Below are positions 1 through 10,097 of a stretch of 47,460 nucleotides of DNA, piece after piece. The notes beneath the pieces are model-generated. The model did no database searches. It saw only the letters and a program-made list of their open reading frames with translations, and was not told the origin of the DNA. Position numbers and translations under genes: made by a program. Each line of letters begins with the position of its first letter. Position 1 is the stretch's first letter. Source of the stretch: Phycisphaerae bacterium (GTDB taxonomy: Bacteria; Planctomycetota; Phycisphaerae; Sedimentisphaerales; Anaerobacaceae); contig JADHXR010000041.1 in assembly GCA_016782865.1 (NCBI GenBank), forward strand, positions 1-47,460. Direction: 5' to 3'.

Positions 1-265
1 GCGTCCCCGTGATTGCATTTTGCCTCCCACCCTAAAGATACTGTGCGATCAAAAAAACATGGCTCAGCCTAACACCAATGCCTGCGTGACGTGCACCGCT
101 GCCATAATTTTTTGGAAAGGATCTTTTTACACCGATCGGTTTATCAACCAGAGAGACCCACATTTTTCAGGATTTTTCTGAAAAACTAAAGATTTCGCGC
201 AAGATCGGAGATTTTTCCCCAAGAAGATAGTGAAAGCAATAAAAACTCATTGAAAGGGCAGAAAA
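1..265. other. Upstream region of the first gene, no gene seen
   Basis: I see no coding signal here. A small hairpin lies at 164-184 (7-bp stem TTTTCAG/CTGAAAA with an AT-rich loop), and the stretch from 165 to 250 is A/T rich, as expected for a leader or promoter region. No -35/-10 pair is convincing. The ribosome site GAAAGGGCAG sits just before the ATG at 266. Confidence 0.4.
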
Positions 266-2986
266 ATGGAACAGTTGAATGGTTACAGAATGAGATTGGT
301 ATTAGTTGGATGTGTAGTTGCTTTATTCGCCTTGAAACCCGTCAACATTCAAGCTCAAGACGGCAGGCCTATAGCAGATGCGGGATCATCTCGATACGCA
401 GGGCCAGACCCGATCGTTCTGGATGGAACCCGTTCTTATGATCCGGACGGTTCCGGCGCACTGAGTTACACATGGCAACAAATAAGCGGCCCATCCGTCG
501 TTATCATAGACGGAAACACCGCTACGCCCACAATTGCCGGATCCATACGACCAGATTCAGGAAGAGGAAAAGATCCGACACCTAAGCCTCAGGGTTTCCC
601 CCAGACAGACGAAGTTCAAGAATGCGAGTTCGAACTAGTGGTCTTCGATGGCGAGCTAACAAGTCTGCCCGATATCGTGAAGGTTGTCATTGTTCCGACT
701 TTTGGTGGAAGTACGATGGTATTGGAAAATGACTCCTTCGATCCTCAAAAACCAACGGTAGTGTTCTTCGACGGTGCATACAGTTCATCTGATCTTTCAA
801 AGGGGGGCAGGTCCTGGCAGCGAGGGGTAGGGTGGAAGGAGAGAGCGAACATAATTAGCTTCTCTCCCTACGTGGCTGACCCCGGCAGCCCCGTCGGATG
901 GTATACTGTTATGACTTTCTCTCGATGTGCTGACATGATTATTGTGTACCTGTCCGCCGTTGCGCCTGACTACAATCAACGCATTCAGACTATGGGTCAG
1001 AGCCTCGGTGGAATCCCGGCAATTGATGTCGCCCTGCGCCTTAACAAGATCTATGCAGACGCCCGATATGCGGTAAACCGTGTTAGCTTCCTTGATGCGA
1101 CCAACTGTTTGGCAGGCGGCGAGTATGCTGCAAGGGTCGCTGATTTCCTCGCGAGTCCCGTCGATGGCGAACAGTGTTGGTTAGAATCTTATTATGCTGA
1201 CACTCAAACCAACTATCGTAATGCGTTGAATGTTCACTTTGTAGCAGACGCAACCGTGAATTCTATACATGGGCTTCCTCGCGACTGGTATCGCCAGTCT
1301 CTTACACGGGAGGACATGAATGTATTCAAATCAGGAGTTATCGCCGGCGCATATTGGTCTGTTGTTGGGCCGGGCAAAAATCTTCAGCTCGCGTCAACAC
1401 CGGGCGTTGAGACATATAAGTTTACCTGGTATGGGAACGAGTTATCCGGCTATACGGATTTTCTTAATGAGTCATTGTACCCCGGAAGGCTGCCGGAACC
1501 TGTCACGCTCGTTGAACCTGTCTATACCGAAGACTCCAATGGCATCGTTTTGACCTGCAAGAGAAGTGAGAATGCAGTCGGTTATGAACTTCTGCTTGGT
1601 GCCGATCCTTATCGTGTTATGGATTACAGCATTATCTCTGATACCCCAGCCCCACCAAATTACGTCATTACCATGCTACCTTTTGAAGAAACCTGGTGGA
1701 CAATAAGAGTTCGTGACCAATATGGCTCCACTATCTATGCCGATCCGATTCCCCTCTACTACTTTGCTTCTAAGCCCGATCCTTCTGACGGTGCCTTACT
1801 TACAGTTACATGGGCGAGACTTAGCTGGACAGTGGGGATAGATACAGCTTCGCACAACGTGTATTTTGGTGACAATATTGATGATGTAAACGCCGGAGCC
1901 GAAGGTACGCTCCTGGCATCCTTGGGCCGATCTGCAGTAGGTGTTGCAGTTGATAATCTTATTGCGGAGACGACTTACTACTGGCGAGTCGATTCGGTCG
2001 AGGCTGACGGTACGATACATATGGGCGATGTCTGGAGCTTTACGCTTGCACCCCAGGCGGCCTATGACCCCATCCCGGCCGATGGCGCCGTGTTTATAAG
2101 CCCGGTTGTAAGTCTTAGCTGGGCGCGAGGTCTGGATGCGGCCTCGCACACCGTGTACATAGGCGAGAATCTCGGCGACGTGAACAATGCCACTGGGGGC
2201 ACAGCACAGTCGGAGACAACCTTTACGCCGGGCACTCTTGAATTAGACAAGACTTATTATTGGCGGGTCGATGAGTATGATGGCACAAACACTCACAAAG
2301 GTGATATCTGGAGTTTTGAAACTCCGCCCTTTATAGAGATTACCGACCCGAATCTTGTCGCCTGGTGGAAGCTTGATGGTGAATATTTCGATCTTGGCTA
2401 TGTCGTCGATCACTCCGGCCATAACCATCATGGCACTCCCCGAGGTGACGTGCACCCCGTGGAGGGGTATGATGGCGGTGCTATGGAGTTTGACGGCTCT
2501 GGTGACTACATTAACATAGACGGCTACAAAGGCATTAATGCTGACGCCAATGGTGTCCAGCCGGCATTCAGTGTCTCCGCCTGGTTCAAGACAACCGGTA
2601 ACGGTGAAATAGTAACCTGGGGCAGTCACTTTAGCGGTCAGAGATTCACATTCCGCCTTAATGAGGGTCGGTTGCGCACTGAGCATGGCAACGGAAATCT
2701 GCAAGGCGATACTGCATGCAACGATGGTGAATGGCACAACTTTGCGTTGACCGTACCATATGATGCCCCCTGTGACGACCCGGATACCGTAATCTACCTG
2801 GACGGCGTGGTTGACAGTAGGGTTTCGACCGGTACATCGAACACCTACGACCTCGTGGCCAGAGCAGATGTTATCATAGGCCGTAGCGCCACGAGCAGCG
2901 ACAGGTATTTCCCTGGGGTGATCGACGATGTCCGCATCTACGATGTGGCACTGAGCGCAGAGGAAATCGCAGTTCTAAGTCAATAG
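266..2986 (+). CDS. Secreted multidomain protein: PKD-like, alpha/beta-hydrolase-like, Fn3-like modules, LamG
   Basis: This is a 906-residue exported protein. Residues 1-30 form a signal peptide ending near NIQAQ. Next comes a PKD/REJ-like Ig domain (about 31-135; ADAG, LDGTRSYDPDG, YTWQQISGP). A region at about 150-385 resembles an alpha/beta hydrolase: it has a GQSLGG nucleophile elbow with Ser246, and the acid and His cannot be assigned by eye. Three Fn3-like modules follow (about 400-690); two of them carry the same TYYWRVD...GDxWSF signature. The C-terminal 200 residues are a LamG/concanavalin-like fold (LVAWWKLDGEY, DGEWHNFALTV, GVIDDVRIYDVALS). It probably acts outside the cell on, or while bound to, a glycan or ester. 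The start at 266 is preceded by GAAAGGGCAG; a longer overlapping frame at 250 is spurious. Its N-terminus (NGYRMRLVLVGCVVA) is nearly the same as in the next genes, which suggests one gene family or shared promoter/leader duplication. It lacks the dockerin-like tail of its neighbours. Confidence 0.8.
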   Translation: MEQLNGYRMRLVLVGCVVALFALKPVNIQAQDGRPIADAGSSRYAGPDPIVLDGTRSYDPDGSGALSYTWQQISGPSVVIIDGNTATPTIAGSIRPDSGRGKDPTPKPQGFPQTDEVQECEFELVVFDGELTSLPDIVKVVIVPTFGGSTMVLENDSFDPQKPTVVFFDGAYSSSDLSKGGRSWQRGVGWKERANIISFSPYVADPGSPVGWYTVMTFSRCADMIIVYLSAVAPDYNQRIQTMGQSLGGIPAIDVALRLNKIYADARYAVNRVSFLDATNCLAGGEYAARVADFLASPVDGEQCWLESYYADTQTNYRNALNVHFVADATVNSIHGLPRDWYRQSLTREDMNVFKSGVIAGAYWSVVGPGKNLQLASTPGVETYKFTWYGNELSGYTDFLNESLYPGRLPEPVTLVEPVYTEDSNGIVLTCKRSENAVGYELLLGADPYRVMDYSIISDTPAPPNYVITMLPFEETWWTIRVRDQYGSTIYADPIPLYYFASKPDPSDGALLTVTWARLSWTVGIDTASHNVYFGDNIDDVNAGAEGTLLASLGRSAVGVAVDNLIAETTYYWRVDSVEADGTIHMGDVWSFTLAPQAAYDPIPADGAVFISPVVSLSWARGLDAASHTVYIGENLGDVNNATGGTAQSETTFTPGTLELDKTYYWRVDEYDGTNTHKGDIWSFETPPFIEITDPNLVAWWKLDGEYFDLGYVVDHSGHNHHGTPRGDVHPVEGYDGGAMEFDGSGDYINIDGYKGINADANGVQPAFSVSAWFKTTGNGEIVTWGSHFSGQRFTFRLNEGRLRTEHGNGNLQGDTACNDGEWHNFALTVPYDAPCDDPDTVIYLDGVVDSRVSTGTSNTYDLVARADVIIGRSATSSDRYFPGVIDDVRIYDVALSAEEIAVLSQ

Positions 2987-3016
2987 ATCACTGAAAGACA
3001 GAAAGAAAGGTGTAGC

Positions 3017-4129
3017 ATGAAATTGTTGAATGGTTACGGAATGAGAATAGTGCTAATTGGAGTTGTGGCTGCCATTATGCTTGGAGGCAAGACTGCGAAC
3101 GCAGATTTCACCTTCGGTGAACCCACGAACCTTGGGCCAACTGTCAACAGTTCGTCTGACGAGGGATCGCCGAGTATCTCGGCAGATAGTTTAGAGATAT
3201 TCTTCGATTCAAATCGTGGCGGTGCTTCAGGTGGTTATGACTTATGGGTATCGACGCGACAAACGACATGGCAAATGACGGAGCTTGTCTGGGGTACACC
3301 AATAAATCTTGGGCCACCTATCAACACGCCCTTCTATGATCATCACCCCAGTATCTCGCTCGATGGACTAACGCTCTACTTTACCTCCGATCGCCCCGGA
3401 GGATATGGTGACCGAGACCTCTGGGTGACAACACGGTCTGCGACAAGTGAGCCTTGGTCAGAGCCAGTGAATCTTGGGCCAACGGTTAACAGTTCGTCGA
3501 GAGACGCTGCCCCGAGCATCTCGGCCGACGGACTGGAGCTTTTCTTCCACTCCAATCGGCCCGGTGGGTATGGTGACCAGGACATATGGGTAACGATCCG
3601 GGCAACTACCTCTGACCCTTGGGCCGAACCTGTGAATCTTGGACCAGGGCTGAACAGCTCGTCAAAGGATGGAGTATCGGACATTTCTGCCGATGGTCTG
3701 ATGCTTTTTTTCCGCTCTCAGAAATCCGGAACATACGGATCGGGCGATATATGGTTTTCAAAGCGAGCAACAGTAAAAGATGACTGGGGCATGCCGGTAC
3801 ATCCTGGGCCACCGATTAACACCACTGCTAGCGACTCTAGCCCCAACATCTCAGCCGACGGCTCCATCCTCTATTTTCATTCAGACCGCGCCGGAGGGCT
3901 TGGTGTCGACCTATGGCAGGTGTCCATCATCCCCATCGTGGACCTTAATGCTGACGGAATAGTTGATTCTGCTGACATGTGCATAATAGTTGACCAATGG
4001 GGAACAGATGATCCCTTATGTGACATTGGCCCAATGCCCTGGGGTGACGGCATCGTCGATGTCCAGGACCTGATCGTCCTTGCTGAGCATTTATTCGAGG
4101 AAGTCCCTCCGGTTGAATCGGTTAGATAG
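3017..4129 (+). CDS. Secreted five-blade PD40 protein with dockerin-like C-terminus, copy 1
   Basis: This 370-residue protein has a signal peptide (residues 1-29, cleavage near TANA-DF) and five PD40/TolB-type beta-propeller repeats. Each repeat is about 55-60 residues and is built on PSISADGLxLxFxSxRPGG, a DLWVTTR strand, and EPVNLGPTVNSS. The tail (about 312-360) is a pair of calcium-loop motifs like type I dockerin: DLNADGIVDSAD, and a modified second loop MPWGDGIVDVQDL followed by an AEHLFEE helix. PD40 repeats usually form extracytoplasmic propellers; dockerins bind cohesins or serve as sorting tails. The ligand is unknown. Start: AAAGAAAGGTGTAGC precedes the ATG. It is the first of five tandem paralogues on the same strand, 30 bp after the preceding gene, so co-transcription is likely. 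Confidence 0.85.
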   Translation: MKLLNGYGMRIVLIGVVAAIMLGGKTANADFTFGEPTNLGPTVNSSSDEGSPSISADSLEIFFDSNRGGASGGYDLWVSTRQTTWQMTELVWGTPINLGPPINTPFYDHHPSISLDGLTLYFTSDRPGGYGDRDLWVTTRSATSEPWSEPVNLGPTVNSSSRDAAPSISADGLELFFHSNRPGGYGDQDIWVTIRATTSDPWAEPVNLGPGLNSSSKDGVSDISADGLMLFFRSQKSGTYGSGDIWFSKRATVKDDWGMPVHPGPPINTTASDSSPNISADGSILYFHSDRAGGLGVDLWQVSIIPIVDLNADGIVDSADMCIIVDQWGTDDPLCDIGPMPWGDGIVDVQDLIVLAEHLFEEVPPVESVR

Positions 4130-4176
4130 AACGCACATAAAGACTAAAAGGACAATGTCGCATGAAAGTCTTCATC

Positions 4177-4291
4177 TGTCATGTCGAGCGCAGTCGAGAC
4201 ATCTGGTCACATGAGGGACTGGTTTTGCAATCGCAGCCAGATTCCTCCACAAAGTTTACCCTGAGCGAAGCCGAATGGGGTCGGAATGACA
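4177..4291. repeat. Foldback intergenic repeat between PD40 copies 1 and 2
   Basis: The element starts with tgtcatgtcgagcgcagtcg and ends with the near-complement ...gaagccgaatggggtcggaatgaca, so its ends (TGTCAT/ATGACA) are inverted. It fills most of the gap between two genes and produces spurious reading frames on both strands. From general knowledge, intergenic elements carrying 'GAGCGnAGTCGA' and 'CTGAGCGAAGC' cores are widespread in environmental genomes. I see only one copy in this window. Confidence 0.6.
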
Positions 4292-4318
4292 CACAAAGAA
4301 GAAAGGAAGGTGCAAGAA

Positions 4319-5437
4319 ATGAAATGGTTCAATGGTTACAGAATGAGATTGATGTTTGTTGGATGTGTAGCCGCTGTTGTGCTTGGCGGTGGAAGTACTA
4401 AGGCAGATTTCACCTTCGGAGAGCCCACAAATCTGGGGCCTACGGTCAACAGTTCAGCTCGTGATCATGGACCTAGTATCTCGCCAGACGGTTTAGAGCT
4501 TTACTTCGGCTCTCGACGCCCTGGAGGGTATGGAGCCACCGATCTTTGGGTAGCGACGCGGGCAACTAAAGACGACCCGTGGGAAGAACCTGTCAATCTC
4601 GGTCATCTGCTAAATACCGGGGAAACTGATTCCGGCCCGAGTATCTCATCGGATTGCCTGAATCTATACTTTGACTCCAGGCGCGCCGGTGGGTACGGAG
4701 AGAGGGATATATACGTAACGACGCGAGCAACAAAAAACGATTCCTGGGGTGACCCGATGAATCTCGGGCCAACTGTCAACAGTCAGTCTGCAGAAGCTCA
4801 TCCTACCATCTCGGACGATGACCTTGAGCTCTTTTTCTTCTCTGACCGACCTGGTGGTTACGGCAACTATGACCTATGGGTGACAACGCGGGCAGCTACC
4901 TACGACGACTGGGGCGTGCCGAAGAACCTCGGTCCGCTGATTAACAGTGCGGGTACGGAGTTTGGCACATGCATTTCATCCGACAGTCGAATTCTCTTTT
5001 TCGGCGGATACAATTGGCCCAATGGGTACGGTGATGTAGACCTATGGATCACGAGGCGAGCGACAAAAGACGACCCGTGGAGCCCACCGAGGAACGTTGG
5101 GCCCGTGGTCAACACGTATTCTGCAGAGGCTTATCCGAGCATCTCGGCTGATGGACGCACACTTTATTTCTGCGACTACGGCACTATACAGCGCCCTGGC
5201 GGCTACGGAGACGATGACCTATATCAGGCCCCAATTATCCCCATCGTTGACTTCAACGGCGATGGAATTGTCGACGCCGCTGACATGTGCATTATGGTTG
5301 ACCACTGGGGCACGGACGAGCCATTGTGTGACATTGGCCCGATGCCCTGGGGTGACGGCATCGTCGATGTTCAGGACCTGATCATCCTTGCGGAGCATCT
5401 GTTCGAGGAGTTTCCGCCGGTTGAATCAGTAGAATAA
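4319..5437 (+). CDS. Secreted five-blade PD40 protein with dockerin-like C-terminus, copy 2
   Basis: The protein is 372 residues from the chosen ATG at 4319, which follows GAAAGGAAGG. An ATG 33 bp upstream is in frame but lies in the foldback repeat and would put charged residues before the signal peptide (WFNGYRMRLMFVGCVAAVVLGG). The architecture equals its neighbours: five blades and a DFNGDGIVDAAD / PWGDGIVDVQDL tail. Blade 2 has SSDCLN in place of the usual SADGL, and blades 4 and 5 have insertions (GGYNWPNGYG, CDYGTIQRPGG). These changes show divergence after duplication rather than a recent identical copy. Function is unknown; extracytoplasmic binding is inferred from the family. Confidence 0.85.
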   Translation: MKWFNGYRMRLMFVGCVAAVVLGGGSTKADFTFGEPTNLGPTVNSSARDHGPSISPDGLELYFGSRRPGGYGATDLWVATRATKDDPWEEPVNLGHLLNTGETDSGPSISSDCLNLYFDSRRAGGYGERDIYVTTRATKNDSWGDPMNLGPTVNSQSAEAHPTISDDDLELFFFSDRPGGYGNYDLWVTTRAATYDDWGVPKNLGPLINSAGTEFGTCISSDSRILFFGGYNWPNGYGDVDLWITRRATKDDPWSPPRNVGPVVNTYSAEAYPSISADGRTLYFCDYGTIQRPGGYGDDDLYQAPIIPIVDFNGDGIVDAADMCIMVDHWGTDEPLCDIGPMPWGDGIVDVQDLIILAEHLFEEFPPVESVE

Positions 5438-5504
5438 ATCACACACTTTTAGCTGGATACAACAAGTTTCCTCTCCGGCCTGAGGGCAGAAAGGTAGGTG
5501 TAGC

Positions 5505-6602
5505 ATGAAATTGTTGAATAGTGACAGAATGAGACTGGTAGTAGTTGGATATGTTGCCACTCTTGTGCTTTGCGGTGGAAGTGCGAAGGCAGATTTCACC
5601 TTCGGTGAACCCACGAATCTGGGGCCGACAGTCAACAATTCGTCGAATGACCGTATGCCGAGCGTCTCGACTGACGGCCTAACGCTCTACTTTACCTCTG
5701 ACCGGCCCGGCGGCCATGGTAACCACGACATATGGATCACCGAACGACAAACGTCAGAACGAAATCCAGAGGGGTACTGGATTGAACCAGTGAATCTTGG
5801 GCCAGCGGTTAACACGCCCTCTACTGATAGTCACCCCAGTATCTCGCTCGATGGACTCACGCTATTCTTTGCATCCAATCGACCTGGTGGCTCAGGTGGC
5901 GAGGACCTCTGGGTGACAACACGGTCTACGACAAATGAGCCTTGGTCAGAGCCGATAAATCTTGGCCCAACGGTTAACAGTTCGTCGAGAGAGCTTGGCC
6001 CGTGCATCTCGGCTGACGGTCTGGAGCTTTTTTTCCATTCCAACCGATCAGGTGGGCAAGGTGACCATGACACATGGGTAACGACCAGGGCAACTACCTC
6101 TGATCCTTGGGCCGAACCTATGAATCTTGGGCCAGGCCTCAATGGACCGGCTATGGATGGGGGACCGGACATTTCTACCGACGGTCTGATGCTCTTCTTC
6201 CGATCTTATGGGGGAAGTAGTTACGGCGGGGCCGACATATGGTTTTCAAAGCGAGCAACAGTAAACGATGACTGGGACATGCCGGTACACCTTGGGCCAC
6301 CGGTTAATACCTCCGCGGAGGACTCCATGCCCAGCGTCTCAGCCGACGGTTACATCCTCTATTTTCAATCAAATCGTGCTGGCGGACTTGGTGGTTACGA
6401 CCTATGGCAAGCGCCAATCATTCCCATCGTTGATCTCAATAGCGACGGCGTTGTCGATGCTGCCGATATGTGCATCATCGTGGACCACTGGAGCACAGAT
6501 AATTCACTATGTGATATTGGCCCGATGCCCTGGGGCGATGGCATCGTCGATGTCCAGGACCTGATCGTCCTTGCCGAGCATTTATTCGAGGAAATCCCAT
6601 GA
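5505..6602 (+). CDS. Secreted five-blade PD40 protein with dockerin-like C-terminus, copy 3
   Basis: This 365-residue paralogue has a signal peptide (VVVGYVATLVLCGGSAKA), five PD40 blades, then DLNSDGVVDAAD and PWGDGIVDVQDLIVLAEHL. It ends right after the EF-hand helix (FEEIP), a few residues shorter than the other copies. Blades 2 and 3 are closest to copy 1 (PSISLDGLTL; ADGLELFFHSNR), and the first 35 bp of the coding region match copy 1 closely, so copies 1 and 3 are probably the nearest pair. The start is supported by GCAGAAAGGTAGGTGTAGC before the ATG. The gap upstream is 67 bp. Confidence 0.85.
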   Translation: MKLLNSDRMRLVVVGYVATLVLCGGSAKADFTFGEPTNLGPTVNNSSNDRMPSVSTDGLTLYFTSDRPGGHGNHDIWITERQTSERNPEGYWIEPVNLGPAVNTPSTDSHPSISLDGLTLFFASNRPGGSGGEDLWVTTRSTTNEPWSEPINLGPTVNSSSRELGPCISADGLELFFHSNRSGGQGDHDTWVTTRATTSDPWAEPMNLGPGLNGPAMDGGPDISTDGLMLFFRSYGGSSYGGADIWFSKRATVNDDWDMPVHLGPPVNTSAEDSMPSVSADGYILYFQSNRAGGLGGYDLWQAPIIPIVDLNSDGVVDAADMCIIVDHWSTDNSLCDIGPMPWGDGIVDVQDLIVLAEHLFEEIP

Positions 6603-6682
6603 TCTGGAAGGTTTGGCCTACCATGCTGACAATATGAACCGTTTCCTGTTTGAGCAGGGACAAGCTTTAAAGGAGAGAAAAA

Positions 6683-7768
6683 ATGAAAAAGACGATTTCA
6701 CTCACGTTGGTTTTGGCATTGTGTATGGTTGCGAAGGTTGCGAAGGCAGATTTCACCTTCGGCGAGCCCATAAATCTGGGGCCGACGGTCAATAGTTCCG
6801 CCGGTGATAACGCGCCATACATCTCGGCTGATGGGCTGGCACTTTATTTTCACTCTGTTCGCCCTGGTGGGTACGGCGACAAAGACCTATGGGTGACCAC
6901 ACGGCCTACGACAAATGACATATGGACAGAACCGGTCAACCTCGGCCCGACGGTCAACAGTTCCGCCGATGATAACGCGCCATGCATCTCGGCTGATGGG
7001 CTGGCACTTTATTTTGACTCCACTCGGCCTGGTGGATATGGCGAGGGGGACATGTGGGTGACGACACGGCTTACGACAAACGACCCCTGGACAGAACCGG
7101 TCAATCTCGGCCCAACGGTGAACAGTTCTGATGGGGAAGGCCGCCCGTGCATCTCGTCCGACGGCCTGTCACTTTACTTTAACTCCCCGCGTTTCGGTGG
7201 CTTTGGTTATAGCGACCTGTATATGACGACGCGGGTAACAGTAGAGGATGAGTGGGGGCCACCAGCCAATCTGGGGCCAACGGTTAACGCTCCGAATAAC
7301 GATATTACCCCGCGCATCTCAGCCGATGGGCGGTTGCTCTTCTTCACATCCTCCGATCGGCCTGGCGGATTCGGCCTAACTGACATCTGGGTAACAAGGC
7401 GGGAAACGATAAACGACGACTGGGGCACGCCGGTCAATCTTGGGCCAAACGTTAACAGCTCCGCAAAAGAGCCTGGCCTGGGTATCTCGACCGATGGCCG
7501 GACTATTTACTTCTACTCAGACCGGCCGGGGGGAGTGGGGGGGTTCGATATTTGGCAGGCGCCCATCATCCCCATCGTTGACCTCAACGGCGACGGAATC
7601 GTCGACGCTGCCGATATGTGCATCGTGGTCGATCATTGGGGTACAGATAACCAATTGTGTGACATTGGCCCGATGCCCTGGGGTGACGGTATAGTCGATG
7701 TCCAGGACCTGGTTGTCCTTGCCGAGCATCTGTTTGAGGAAATTCCGCCCGCTGGACCGGGCCGATAA
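6683..7768 (+). CDS. Secreted five-blade PD40 protein with dockerin-like C-terminus, copy 4
   Basis: This is a 361-residue paralogue. The signal peptide differs from copies 1-3 (MKKTISLTLVLALCMVAKVAKA) but the mature protein starts with the same DFTFGEPINLGPTVNSS. Blades 1 and 2 are almost identical to each other (DNAPYISADGLALYFHS / DNAPCISADGLALYFDS), a sign of recent internal duplication. The C-terminus is DLNGDGIVDAAD ... PWGDGIVDVQDLVVLAEHL. The ribosome site AAAGGAGAGAAAAA is strong. Copies 4 and 5 share the MKKT-type leader, so the array holds two signal-peptide subtypes. Confidence 0.85.
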   Translation: MKKTISLTLVLALCMVAKVAKADFTFGEPINLGPTVNSSAGDNAPYISADGLALYFHSVRPGGYGDKDLWVTTRPTTNDIWTEPVNLGPTVNSSADDNAPCISADGLALYFDSTRPGGYGEGDMWVTTRLTTNDPWTEPVNLGPTVNSSDGEGRPCISSDGLSLYFNSPRFGGFGYSDLYMTTRVTVEDEWGPPANLGPTVNAPNNDITPRISADGRLLFFTSSDRPGGFGLTDIWVTRRETINDDWGTPVNLGPNVNSSAKEPGLGISTDGRTIYFYSDRPGGVGGFDIWQAPIIPIVDLNGDGIVDAADMCIVVDHWGTDNQLCDIGPMPWGDGIVDVQDLVVLAEHLFEEIPPAGPGR

Positions 7769-7836
7769 ACCTAATGCGGAAGATATACATACAGTGTATG
7801 GCACGGAAACACTAACGATTTTGAAAGGGTAGCAAG

Positions 7837-9486
7837 ATGAAAAAGACAGTTCTACTCGTATTGGTTCTGCGTATGTCTGCCGAGATTGCCCATGCAGATT
7901 TCACCTTCGGCCAGCCCACGAATCTGGGGGCGACGGTCAATAGTCTGACCGACGACTATTTCCCGAACATCTCGGTTGACGGACTGACGCTCTACTTCCA
8001 ATCTCGGCGGTCTGGCTCGTATGGTCCCTACGACCTATGGGTAACAACGCGAAGAACAACAGACGATCAGTGGGGTGAGCCTGTGAATCTTGGACCGGTC
8101 GTCAACAGTTCGGCTCAGGACGGTGGACCCAGCATCTCGGCCGATGGCCTGTCACTCTACTTCCACTCCGTAAGGTCAGGTGTGGCCGATGTATGGGTGA
8201 CAACGCGCGCCACTACAAGCGGTGCCTGGCTAGAACCGGTGAATCTTGGGCCAACCGTCAACAGTTCGGCTAGCGACGTTTGCCCGAGAATCTCCAGCGA
8301 TGGCCTATCGCTCTTCTTTGAATCCGCCCGGGACGGCGGGTATGGCGGCCGGGATCTATGGGTGACGACGCGGGCAACGCTTGCAGACGCCTGGGGTCCA
8401 GCAGTCAATCTTGGGCCAAATGTCAACACGTCCGATGGTGAAGTTGGTCTTGATGTCTCGGCTGATGGCCTGGCGCTCATTTTTTCGTCCAATCGGCCGG
8501 AGGGATCAGGTGATTACGACCTGTGGGTAACGACTCGCTCAACTGTCTCAGACCCTTGGGGCCCAGCAGCGAATCTGGGTCAAGGGATCAATACGATTTA
8601 TGGGGAGAGCGGGCCGAACATTTCAGCCGACGGCCTTTCACTTTACTTCTGCGACTACAATCTCGCTAAACCAGGTGGGTCCGGAGGTATCGATCTATGG
8701 CAGACCCCCATCATCCCAATTGTTGACCTCAACGCCGATGGCATTGTCGACGCAGCTGACGTGTCCATCTTGGTTGACCACTGGGGTACAGACAATTCAC
8801 TGTGCGATATTAGCCCAATGCCCTGGGGCGACGGCACAGTCGATGTTGAGGATCTCAAGGTCCTTGCCGAGTATTTGTTTGGGGACATGCAATGTGTGGC
8901 TCACTTCAGGCTCGACGAGGCAAAAGGCAGTATCGCCAATGACAGCGCCAGGAACCGTGACGGCACAGTCCACGGCTACCCAGCTTGGCAGCTCACAGGC
9001 GGTGTCGACGGCGGCGCACTGCAGCTCGATGGTGTTGATGATTATGTTAGCACAGCCTTTGTCTTGAATCCGGCCGAAGGCGATTTCAGCGTATTGGCCT
9101 GGGTCAAAGGCGGCGCTGATGGTCAGGCAATCGTCTCTCAGGAAGGCGGCGTAAACTGGCTGATGGTCGATGGCGCCGGCGGAGCACTGAGGACAGATCT
9201 CAAAGTACCGGCTAAGGAAGGCCGAGGCGCCACTCCGGCCGGTCCACCTCTGATTAGCTCGGCCGTAGTGATCGACGGTGATTGGCATCGCGTGGGCTTT
9301 GTCAGGAACGGCGACGACAGGATTCTCTATGTGGACGGCAAAGAGGTAGTCCGTGACGCAGCCGTCGATCTGGAGCCTGCAACCGGAGGTCTGTACCTCG
9401 GTGCGGCAAGCAGCCTCGAACCGGGAACTTTCTTCTCCGGCCTGATCGACGACGTTCGCATCTACAATAGAGCAGTGAAGCCGTAG
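7837..9486 (+). CDS. Secreted PD40 protein with dockerin-like pair and C-terminal LamG domain, copy 5
   Basis: This 549-residue protein is the largest of the five. It has a signal peptide (MKKTVLLVLVLRMSAEIAHA), five PD40 blades (about 22-290), the EF-hand pair DLNADGIVDAAD / PWGDGTVDVEDL (about 292-345), and then about 200 residues of LamG/concanavalin fold. LamG signs are VAHFRLDEAKGSIANDSA, GALQLDGVDDYV, GDFSVLAWVK, DGDWHRVGFVRNG and GLIDDVRIYNRAV. The dockerin-like pair is therefore internal here, not C-terminal. The LamG domain resembles the one ending the gene at 266, so the array is bracketed by two LamG proteins. A relic of another gene tail follows immediately. Confidence 0.85.
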   Translation: MKKTVLLVLVLRMSAEIAHADFTFGQPTNLGATVNSLTDDYFPNISVDGLTLYFQSRRSGSYGPYDLWVTTRRTTDDQWGEPVNLGPVVNSSAQDGGPSISADGLSLYFHSVRSGVADVWVTTRATTSGAWLEPVNLGPTVNSSASDVCPRISSDGLSLFFESARDGGYGGRDLWVTTRATLADAWGPAVNLGPNVNTSDGEVGLDVSADGLALIFSSNRPEGSGDYDLWVTTRSTVSDPWGPAANLGQGINTIYGESGPNISADGLSLYFCDYNLAKPGGSGGIDLWQTPIIPIVDLNADGIVDAADVSILVDHWGTDNSLCDISPMPWGDGTVDVEDLKVLAEYLFGDMQCVAHFRLDEAKGSIANDSARNRDGTVHGYPAWQLTGGVDGGALQLDGVDDYVSTAFVLNPAEGDFSVLAWVKGGADGQAIVSQEGGVNWLMVDGAGGALRTDLKVPAKEGRGATPAGPPLISSAVVIDGDWHRVGFVRNGDDRILYVDGKEVVRDAAVDLEPATGGLYLGAASSLEPGTFFSGLIDDVRIYNRAVKP

Positions 9487-9502: not shown

Positions 9503-9631
9503 CACAGCTACTCTTCGTACAGGCGTTTTGGGCTTGCAGACCAAACAACCAACGGCACCGAAGACATCTGGTGGATTCTCGAAGGCCAGGACTATCCCAG
9601 ATTGTGGTGGGAGTTGATTCCTGAAAACTGA
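9503..9631 (+). pseudogene. Orphan C-terminal tail (GLUG-protein-like), no start
   Basis: One open frame after an in-frame stop reads RRFGLADQTTNGTEDIWW and then GQDYPRLWWELIPEN before TGA. A short, Trp-rich GQDYPRLxWE ending is typical of long secreted planctomycete proteins with GLUG-type repeats. Nothing upstream in frame could encode the rest, so I read this as the surviving 3' end of a lost gene. The similarity is from memory and needs a search. Confidence 0.4.
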
Positions 9632-9711
9632 TATGGGCCAGTACCTTCGACATTTCAGGTGTATTTCGTCGGACGATTAGAGCGCCGGGATAAACCGGCA
9701 TGGAGTTGCGA

Positions 9712-9840
9712 ATGAAAGAGTCGTACAGGAAAGGCCTGGCGAGCCATCCTGGTCCCGAGTCATGCGTCGGTCGTCGCAAGGCGGCAGGCGAAGCGTTGAC
9801 AGGGACATGCTACAAACCACATAATACTTTAGCGAAGTGA
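9712..9840 (+). pseudogene. Small ORF resembling the leader ORF of group II intron maturase elements (relic)
   Basis: The 42-codon frame contains KGLASHPGPESCVGRRKAAG followed by EALTG. I associate this motif with short frames found just upstream of group II intron reverse transcriptases. No reverse transcriptase or domain V is visible downstream: the frame ends in the hairpin at 9827. I therefore treat it as a 5' scrap of a mobile intron. The identification is tentative. Confidence 0.3.
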
Positions 9841-9980
9841 AGCATTTCGCTAAAGCGGTTCAGGGTTCACAGTTCCAGGTTCACCGTTGATCGAAAGAAC
9901 TAGTTTTACCAGCCACCAACCCTGAACCGTGAACCTTCTAACCCGGAACCAACACTTTTGCCGCACACGGCTAAAGTGTT
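9827..9980. repeat. Cluster of three inverted repeats in the gap before rnr
   Basis: Three stems lie in a row. First, CTTTAGCGAA at 9827 pairs with TTCGCTAAAG ending at 9855. Second, GGTTCAGGGTT (9857-9867) pairs with AACCCTGAACC (9918-9928). Third, AACACTTTTGCCG (9951-9963) pairs with CGGCTAAAGTGTT (9968-9980), 13 bp with one mismatch and a 4-base loop. No U-run follows, so simple intrinsic termination is not obvious; foldback repeats are the better reading. The rest of the 9632-10097 gap holds no gene I can support beyond the relics listed. Confidence 0.55.
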
Positions 9981-10097
9981 ACCCTGACTCCAGATTCTTG
10001 CCGGCGCCAAAGTACAGAGCGTTTGATTAGACTACAGATATTTGCGGGAACCAGTCGATATAAGTACCGATGAGATGCCTTTTTATGAGAAACACAG

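Follow-up and report, generated by a model that had tools for sequence, protein, structure and literature searches.

What do five neighbouring genes do that each join a variable propeller to almost the same short tail, and how did they come to lie side by side? The genes, D1 to D5, are adjoining plus-strand open reading frames (ORFs) in a 47,460-nucleotide stretch of DNA from a Phycisphaerae bacterium (the window), which is contig C182 of a metagenome-assembled genome of 7.25 Mb in 240 contigs (84% complete, 5% contamination). Each encodes a leader that by eye resembles a signal peptide, five PD40 blades and a 58-residue EF-hand-pair tail, an organisation proposed by an earlier, sequence-only reading of this DNA and confirmed here by ORF analysis, Pfam and a blade hidden Markov model (HMM). 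We regard the array as real and well formed: its predicted secreted five-blade proteins are modular and turn over fast, and their dockerin-like tail is constant. The earlier view that these are paralogous, predicted extracellular proteins of a binding type is supported. We propose, at a probability of about 0.45, that the secreted propellers would serve as binding modules docked by the constant, calcium-dependent tail to a shared partner. The parts are cleanly separated here: the tail is constant, the predicted face varies, the ends can be swapped and the locus is unlike that of a same-genus genome.

D1 occupies 3017..4129, with its propeller at 3113..3928 and its tail at 3929..4102. D2 reads from 4286 to 5437 and most likely starts at 4319, because the leader shared with its neighbours begins there; its propeller lies at 4415..5236 and its tail at 5237..5410. 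Gene, propeller and tail are found at 5505..6602, 5601..6419 and 6420..6593 for D3, at 6683..7768, 6758..7567 and 7568..7741 for D4, and at 7837..9486, 7906..8712 and 8713..8886 for D5. D1 to D3 are without LamG, and D5, whose tail is more diverged, continues into a LamG domain (PF13385) at 9028..9480. The propellers of D1-D3 and D5 were delimited by Pfam and the blade HMM, for D5 also by a structural model, and that of D4 by its model; the tails of D1-D3 were delimited by a tail search and a blade/tail scan, and that of D5 by the scan and paralogue comparison. PF07676 (PD40) exceeded its cut-off of 20.9 bits in all five proteins (89-120 bits, E 1.2e-25 to 3.4e-35), and the HMM, built from eight window blades, found exactly five blades in each. 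These are predicted to close into one ring as a five-blade beta-propeller, with confidence (pLDDT) blocks mostly of 87-97 over the propeller of the D4 model. The D5 model was weak in the tail and LamG and was set aside.

D1 to D5 are not an isolated set but belong to a larger, genome-wide family. In the same genome the tail query gave 36 matches and the propeller query 33, several of the latter from some genes. Blades and tails were counted over ORFs of at least 80 amino acids (aa) from the window and 32 fetched regions of this genome (G000), which were picked from profile and query matches (one of these searches scored 150 of 355 candidates). Blades and tail are combined in 22 ORFs, and 20 of them have exactly five blades; of the remaining two, one has two blades and lies near the start of contig C6, and the other, of 169 aa, has one blade. 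After the tail, 14 of the 20 carry 136-210 residues and six, D1 to D4 among them, carry 0-8. Pfam scans of eight of these 14 found LamG in seven, C52a being without it. LamG on D5 is the common form, and the suggestion that D5 had gained this domain is not upheld, as unrooted counts give no direction. Among 10 proteins scanned, the same kind of tail plus LamG was also found on three Kelch and two Reg_prop proteins, on one SASA acetylesterase and on one M14 carboxypeptidase. Three fusions also contain a five-blade PD40 propeller: an M56/BlaR1-type protein with ankyrins, another with tail and LamG, and a Ser/Thr kinase (L105:5837-9904, L109:4166-6826 and L102:4632-9065). The third gene on contig C102 (L101:10290-11444 and beyond) has a TAG inside its tail and an open frame beyond, making it a naturally cut copy.

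For the wider family, 120 homologues were listed among 7598 matches from 7998 scored candidates. Five blades and one tail were present in 114 of the 120, a constancy that is partly selected because a 361-aa query served to choose the homologues by similarity and length. Their labelled sources, few of them named, include Sedimentisphaerales, Phycisphaerae and Planctomycetota, plus one Nitrospirota and one Zixibacteria. A scan of genome contigs found just two Gemmatimonadetes relatives. In the literature we found no paper combining 'PD40' with 'dockerin'.

Variation within the propeller is concentrated on one side of the blades. Seven columns (16, 18, 19, 32, 34, 41 and 42) exceeded 3 bits over 308 blade periods, each exactly 55 residues long. 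On the modelled strands all seven map to the DA/BC side, where strands A and C begin and strand B ends; no column on the AB/CD side exceeded 3 bits. Of the 120 proteins, 78 have five regular blades; when each blade was analysed separately in these, six or seven columns exceeded 3 bits per blade, all on the DA/BC side. Changes between paralogues showed the same contrast between top and bottom for the pair D1 and D3 (p 0.002) and for D3 and the C102 gene C102b (p 7e-5). From general propeller topology, the variable strand ends are predicted to form one face.

Among known propellers, TolB was the top Foldseek match (E 1.2e-12) and belongs to the same repeat family (PF07676). It differs in having six blades and an additional N-terminal domain, and the window proteins reach at most 26.4 bits against TIGR02800, whose cut-off is 343. 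The NCBIfam models for PorE and CHU_0125 of Bacteroidetes (NF052230, NF053607) match the window blades with E 6e-26 to 3e-52, but over the blades only and with 90.9-130.3 and 148-178 bits against cut-offs of 600 and 620, and the Pfam scan found no other PorE domains in the window proteins. PMC7463736 describes PorE with a five-bladed propeller. Like the propeller lectins PLL and tachylectin-2, the window propellers are repeated and symmetric with a potential site per blade, and by analogy with them might bind sugar. The likeness is one of structure: PLL lectins appear in the Foldseek list.

The tail diverges far less at the protein level than the propeller. Among D1-D5 alone, amino-acid identity was 0.84 in the tail vs 0.57 in the propeller, median nonsynonymous divergence (dN) 0.067 vs 0.373 and median synonymous divergence (dS) 1.16 vs 1.68. 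Across 17 paralogues, identity was 0.72 in the tail, 0.49 in the propeller and 0.48 in the C-terminal part (12 genes), and differences at 4-fold sites were 0.526, 0.635 and 0.59. This set leaves out C38 (the most diverged tail), the first C198 gene (open-ended where its contig starts), C6, the third C102 gene (stop inside the tail) and the C236 fragment, and its 'LamG' part comprises all residues after the tail, C52a, without a LamG match, being one of the 12. The tail is thus held mostly at the protein level, with a little added sameness at silent sites. Pure gene conversion of the tails is insufficient alone, with silent sites of the tail differing in 0.43 (five genes) to 0.53 (17 paralogues) of comparisons, and a partial role is likely.

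The kinship of the tail to dockerins, as presumed by the sequence-only reading, holds in profile comparison and fails at the family cut-offs. PF00404 (cut-off 22.9 bits) gave 10.5-16.5 bits in four copies and did not list D1, and the GC-type dockerin model NF041540 (cut-off 29 bits) gave 19.9-23.5 bits. PF00404 passes at 10 other places in this genome, and the tail query also matches at three of them (C38, C81, C203). A profile built from 26 diverse tails matched the solved dockerins 2y3n_B (E 8e-10), 4fl4_A (9e-7) and 1daq_A (1e-6); the same search also listed calmodulins, 'Rab family' chains, non-dockerin EF-hands and a leucine-rich-looking chain. As in type I dockerins, the tail has two loop-helix units and a canonical first DxNxDG loop, which is complete as DxNxDGxxDxxD with D300, N302, D304, D308 and D311 conserved (D4 numbering); conservation extends to M-P-W loop residues. 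Unlike type I dockerins, it has an expanded second loop, falls below the Pfam cut-off, is often internal and comes from a genome in which no cohesin was found.

The absence of a cohesin from the window, pointed out earlier, was borne out and extends to the genome, in which PF00963 found none (84% complete; a divergent cohesin could be missed). Among 118 sampled genomes of the order, the tail was present at E <=1e-6 in 56 but a PF00963 cohesin in six, and both together in two (G026, G061), which puts the role of such tails at issue. A cohesin-dockerin 'planctosome' is proposed for freshwater Planctomycetes of another family in PMC6461901, where dockerins on non-cellulase proteins of planctomycetes offer a likeness to the present case. 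PMC11557425 names Limihaloglobus and gives its largest scaffoldin two cohesins.

At least 40 residues follow the tail in 54 of 130 tailed five-blade proteins. A C-terminal sorting tag was rejected, the tail not being the extreme C-terminus in these 54. C-terminal types were assigned by length and motif, more than 140 residues being scored as LamG-length (C52a included) and NP(T/S)TG as I42, and were placed on a quick, unrooted tree of 130 of 136 sequences. The 130 propellers comprise 76 with no such part, 40 with LamG-length, 11 with I42 and three with other ends; the type needs 37 changes on this tree, and the starred branches alone require at least 12 changes for the LamG-length class. Pfam confirmed I42 ends in two proteins and a SnoaL-like end in one. 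In P0006, P0059 and other homologues of 468-473 aa, a chagasin-type I42 protease-inhibitor domain comes after propeller and tail. In the pair D1 and C102b, silent differences were 15/62 in the tail vs 20/236 in the propeller (p 0.0015), the tail being the more diverged, which indicates that propeller and tail have different histories.

On the docking proposal, each protein would combine a secreted propeller, which probably serves to bind a ligand, with an EF-hand pair that is dockerin-like and near-constant, secretion of D1-D5 being predicted. The tail would hold the protein, in a calcium-dependent manner, to one shared partner at the cell surface or matrix, while the variable face would bind varied extracellular ligands. 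Recombination at leader and tail may assemble new combinations, which could then be gathered into arrays like D1-D5. A constant tail, propellers predicted to vary on one face and different genes in the same-genus genome together point to a likely fast-changing surface binding kit. Should the tail prove to dock, one would expect a general surface receptor of the group as the partner; otherwise the family is still a case of bacterial secreted proteins built by repeated module exchange. Several observations weigh against the proposal. The second EF-hand loop is not canonical, being expanded between D327 and D335 (DIGPMPWGDG) with D339 and D342 kept, and the D4 tail was modelled only moderately well (pLDDT blocks 61-77, the last block 39). 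Bottom-side columns 50, 52 and 53 of the blades are moderately variable (2.5-2.8 bits), and the chance of about 1.6e-4 that all seven variable columns fall within the 18 columns of the DA/BC side is optimistic, because the top and bottom sets were drawn after the pooled entropies had been seen. The closest pair, D1 and C102b, lacks a contrast between top and bottom (14/89 vs 11/88, p 0.67). The tail also diverges less at silent sites, so that part of its sameness may come from recombination. None of 200 shuffles (mean 46.9 changes) clustered the C-terminal types as strongly as they are on the tree, which indicates that swapping is not free.

Some of these points suit an alternative that we consider somewhat unlikely, in which calcium folds the tail into a cap or spacer. 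This would seal the propeller and double as a recombination seam, and the sameness of the tail would come from folding and from exchange at the seam. The many proteins that continue beyond the tail, the somewhat lower silent divergence of the tail, the differing silent divergence of propeller and tail in D1 and C102b and the rarity of recognisable cohesins are all consistent with it. However, Kelch, Reg_prop, esterase and peptidase passengers have retained this tail as well, and the conserved M-P-W residues seem to go beyond what calcium ligation alone would need. A new docking system for the tail is possible, as the sequence-only reading had suggested; in its specific form, a cohesin-independent planctomycete docking in which the constant, expanded-loop EF-hand module plugs fast-changing five-blade binders onto one conserved surface receptor, we hold it to be unlikely. 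The binders would then be assembled by recombination, with swappable LamG, protease-inhibitor or other ends, and each lineage would have its own set of extracellular recognition proteins.

Other explanations fare worse. Ordinary local tandem duplication of one surface adhesin would account for five adjoining genes on one strand with one architecture, and D1 and D3 do fall within one 9-row clade. But in a test on 51 rows (34 metagenome rows chosen after a first tree, and 17 others; bootstrap unsettled), constraining D1-D5 to one clade lowered the log-likelihood by 337 (p-AU 5.5e-10); D1 pairs with a C102 gene, its closest relative in the genome and on another contig, and D4 pairs with metagenome proteins (up to 86%). 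Under the model and sampling used, local duplication of all five is refuted; this explanation as a whole is very improbable, and diversification by duplication in place, as proposed earlier, is not supported. P0011, a Nitrospirota-labelled protein from a 2.46-Mb contig, lies within the D4 clade and is 71% identical to D4, a possible transfer or mislabel. It is also improbable that the propellers are soluble counterparts or decoys of a sensor-domain propeller in membrane proteins of the same genome. The M56/BlaR1-type and kinase fusions described above would fit such a role, as would a kinase-TPR gene, itself without a PD40 match, that lies beyond rpsT on the other side of the breakpoint described below; yet only three such fusions were found, and one is already among the 20 tailed proteins. 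That D1-D5 are secreted enzymes of the GH43/GH62 five-blade fold is suggested by the fold matches, GH62 and GH43 enzymes being among the top structural hits, and by a precomputed GH43 label (PF04616) on four of the 120 listed homologues. Against this highly implausible reading, the conserved residues recur in every blade, a structural pattern and not one unique site, and the Pfam match to GH43 in the window reached just E 0.09 in one copy.

The array occupies the first 9.9 kb of C182 and is followed by conserved genes. RNase R, EF-P and SecA are 95.6, 95.7 and 89.9% identical to those of the same-genus genome G130, whereas the best G130 matches of the array members reach 49-55%. No orthologue of D1-D5 was found in G130, which is 78% complete; with this limit, an unrelated context in related genomes, which would speak against the sequence-only reading, is seen in part, as the G130 locus holds other genes. 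With gene A (266..2986, described below), D1, D4 and D5 as queries (D2 and D3 left out), these genes were found near the conserved genes in none of 12 fetched relatives. In five of the 12 (G130, G131, G120, G057, G126), glyA-TPR-rpsT precedes RNase R; in the other seven the arrangement is not visible or different. Homology to G130 begins at 9991, the breakpoint, 107 bp before RNase R. Just upstream, at 9824..9951, lies a dispersed 128-bp repeat, an inverted 93% copy of which directly follows glyA-TPR-rpsT on contig C42 (L230) of the window's own genome and precedes the Ser/Thr kinase-TPR gene. Inverted copies of this intergenic repeat (about 128-162 bp) flank the broken rpsT-RNase R junction, and a 94% copy lies in L110. 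Insertion and inversion at dispersed repeats both fit the difference between the loci. The array end may also be misassembled or the contig chimeric; counting against this, a second contig in the bin carries an 86% relative of D1, and GC content is similar (0.51-0.57), but the lower third-position GC of gene A and D1-D3, given below, points the other way.

Two leader subtypes, as noted earlier, are real. Over the first 57 nt, identity is 75-84% among gene A and D1-D3 and 35-46% between these and D4 and D5, which have the second leader type. DNA comparison places the shared plus-strand leader cassette at 264..322 (gene A), 3015-3073, 4317-4375 and 5503-5561. The D2 leader DNA has 18 matches at E <1e-5 in its own genome, D2 itself counted, and leaders of this type precede propellers, a Kelch protein and a protein that by eye looks beta-helical. 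Leaders and C-terminal ends alike occur in varied combinations. The near-identical mature N-terminus of the earlier reading, DFTFGEPTNLGPTVN, is exact in D1-D3; D4 has one substitution (I for T) and D5 two (Q for E, A for P). Gene A, on the plus strand, shares the leader of D1-D3, and its mature part is unrelated to D1-D5: a PKD-like start below cut-off, an unassigned middle that by eye is hydrolase-like and a C-terminal LamG, which, like that of D5, had been noted before. The GC content at third codon positions (GC3) of gene A and D1-D3 (0.51-0.56) is lower than that of five neighbouring genes (0.65-0.71). Part of the spacer between D1 and D2 (4156-4250) is a dispersed repeat with copies at L125:5906-6000 and L101:10239-10384 (94% and 75%), which adjoin tail-bearing genes on two other contigs. 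Beyond D5, at about 9549-9680, lies what by eye is a remnant 3' frame (..EGQDYPRLWWELIPEN), the DNA of which turns up again in several other regions fetched from this genome.

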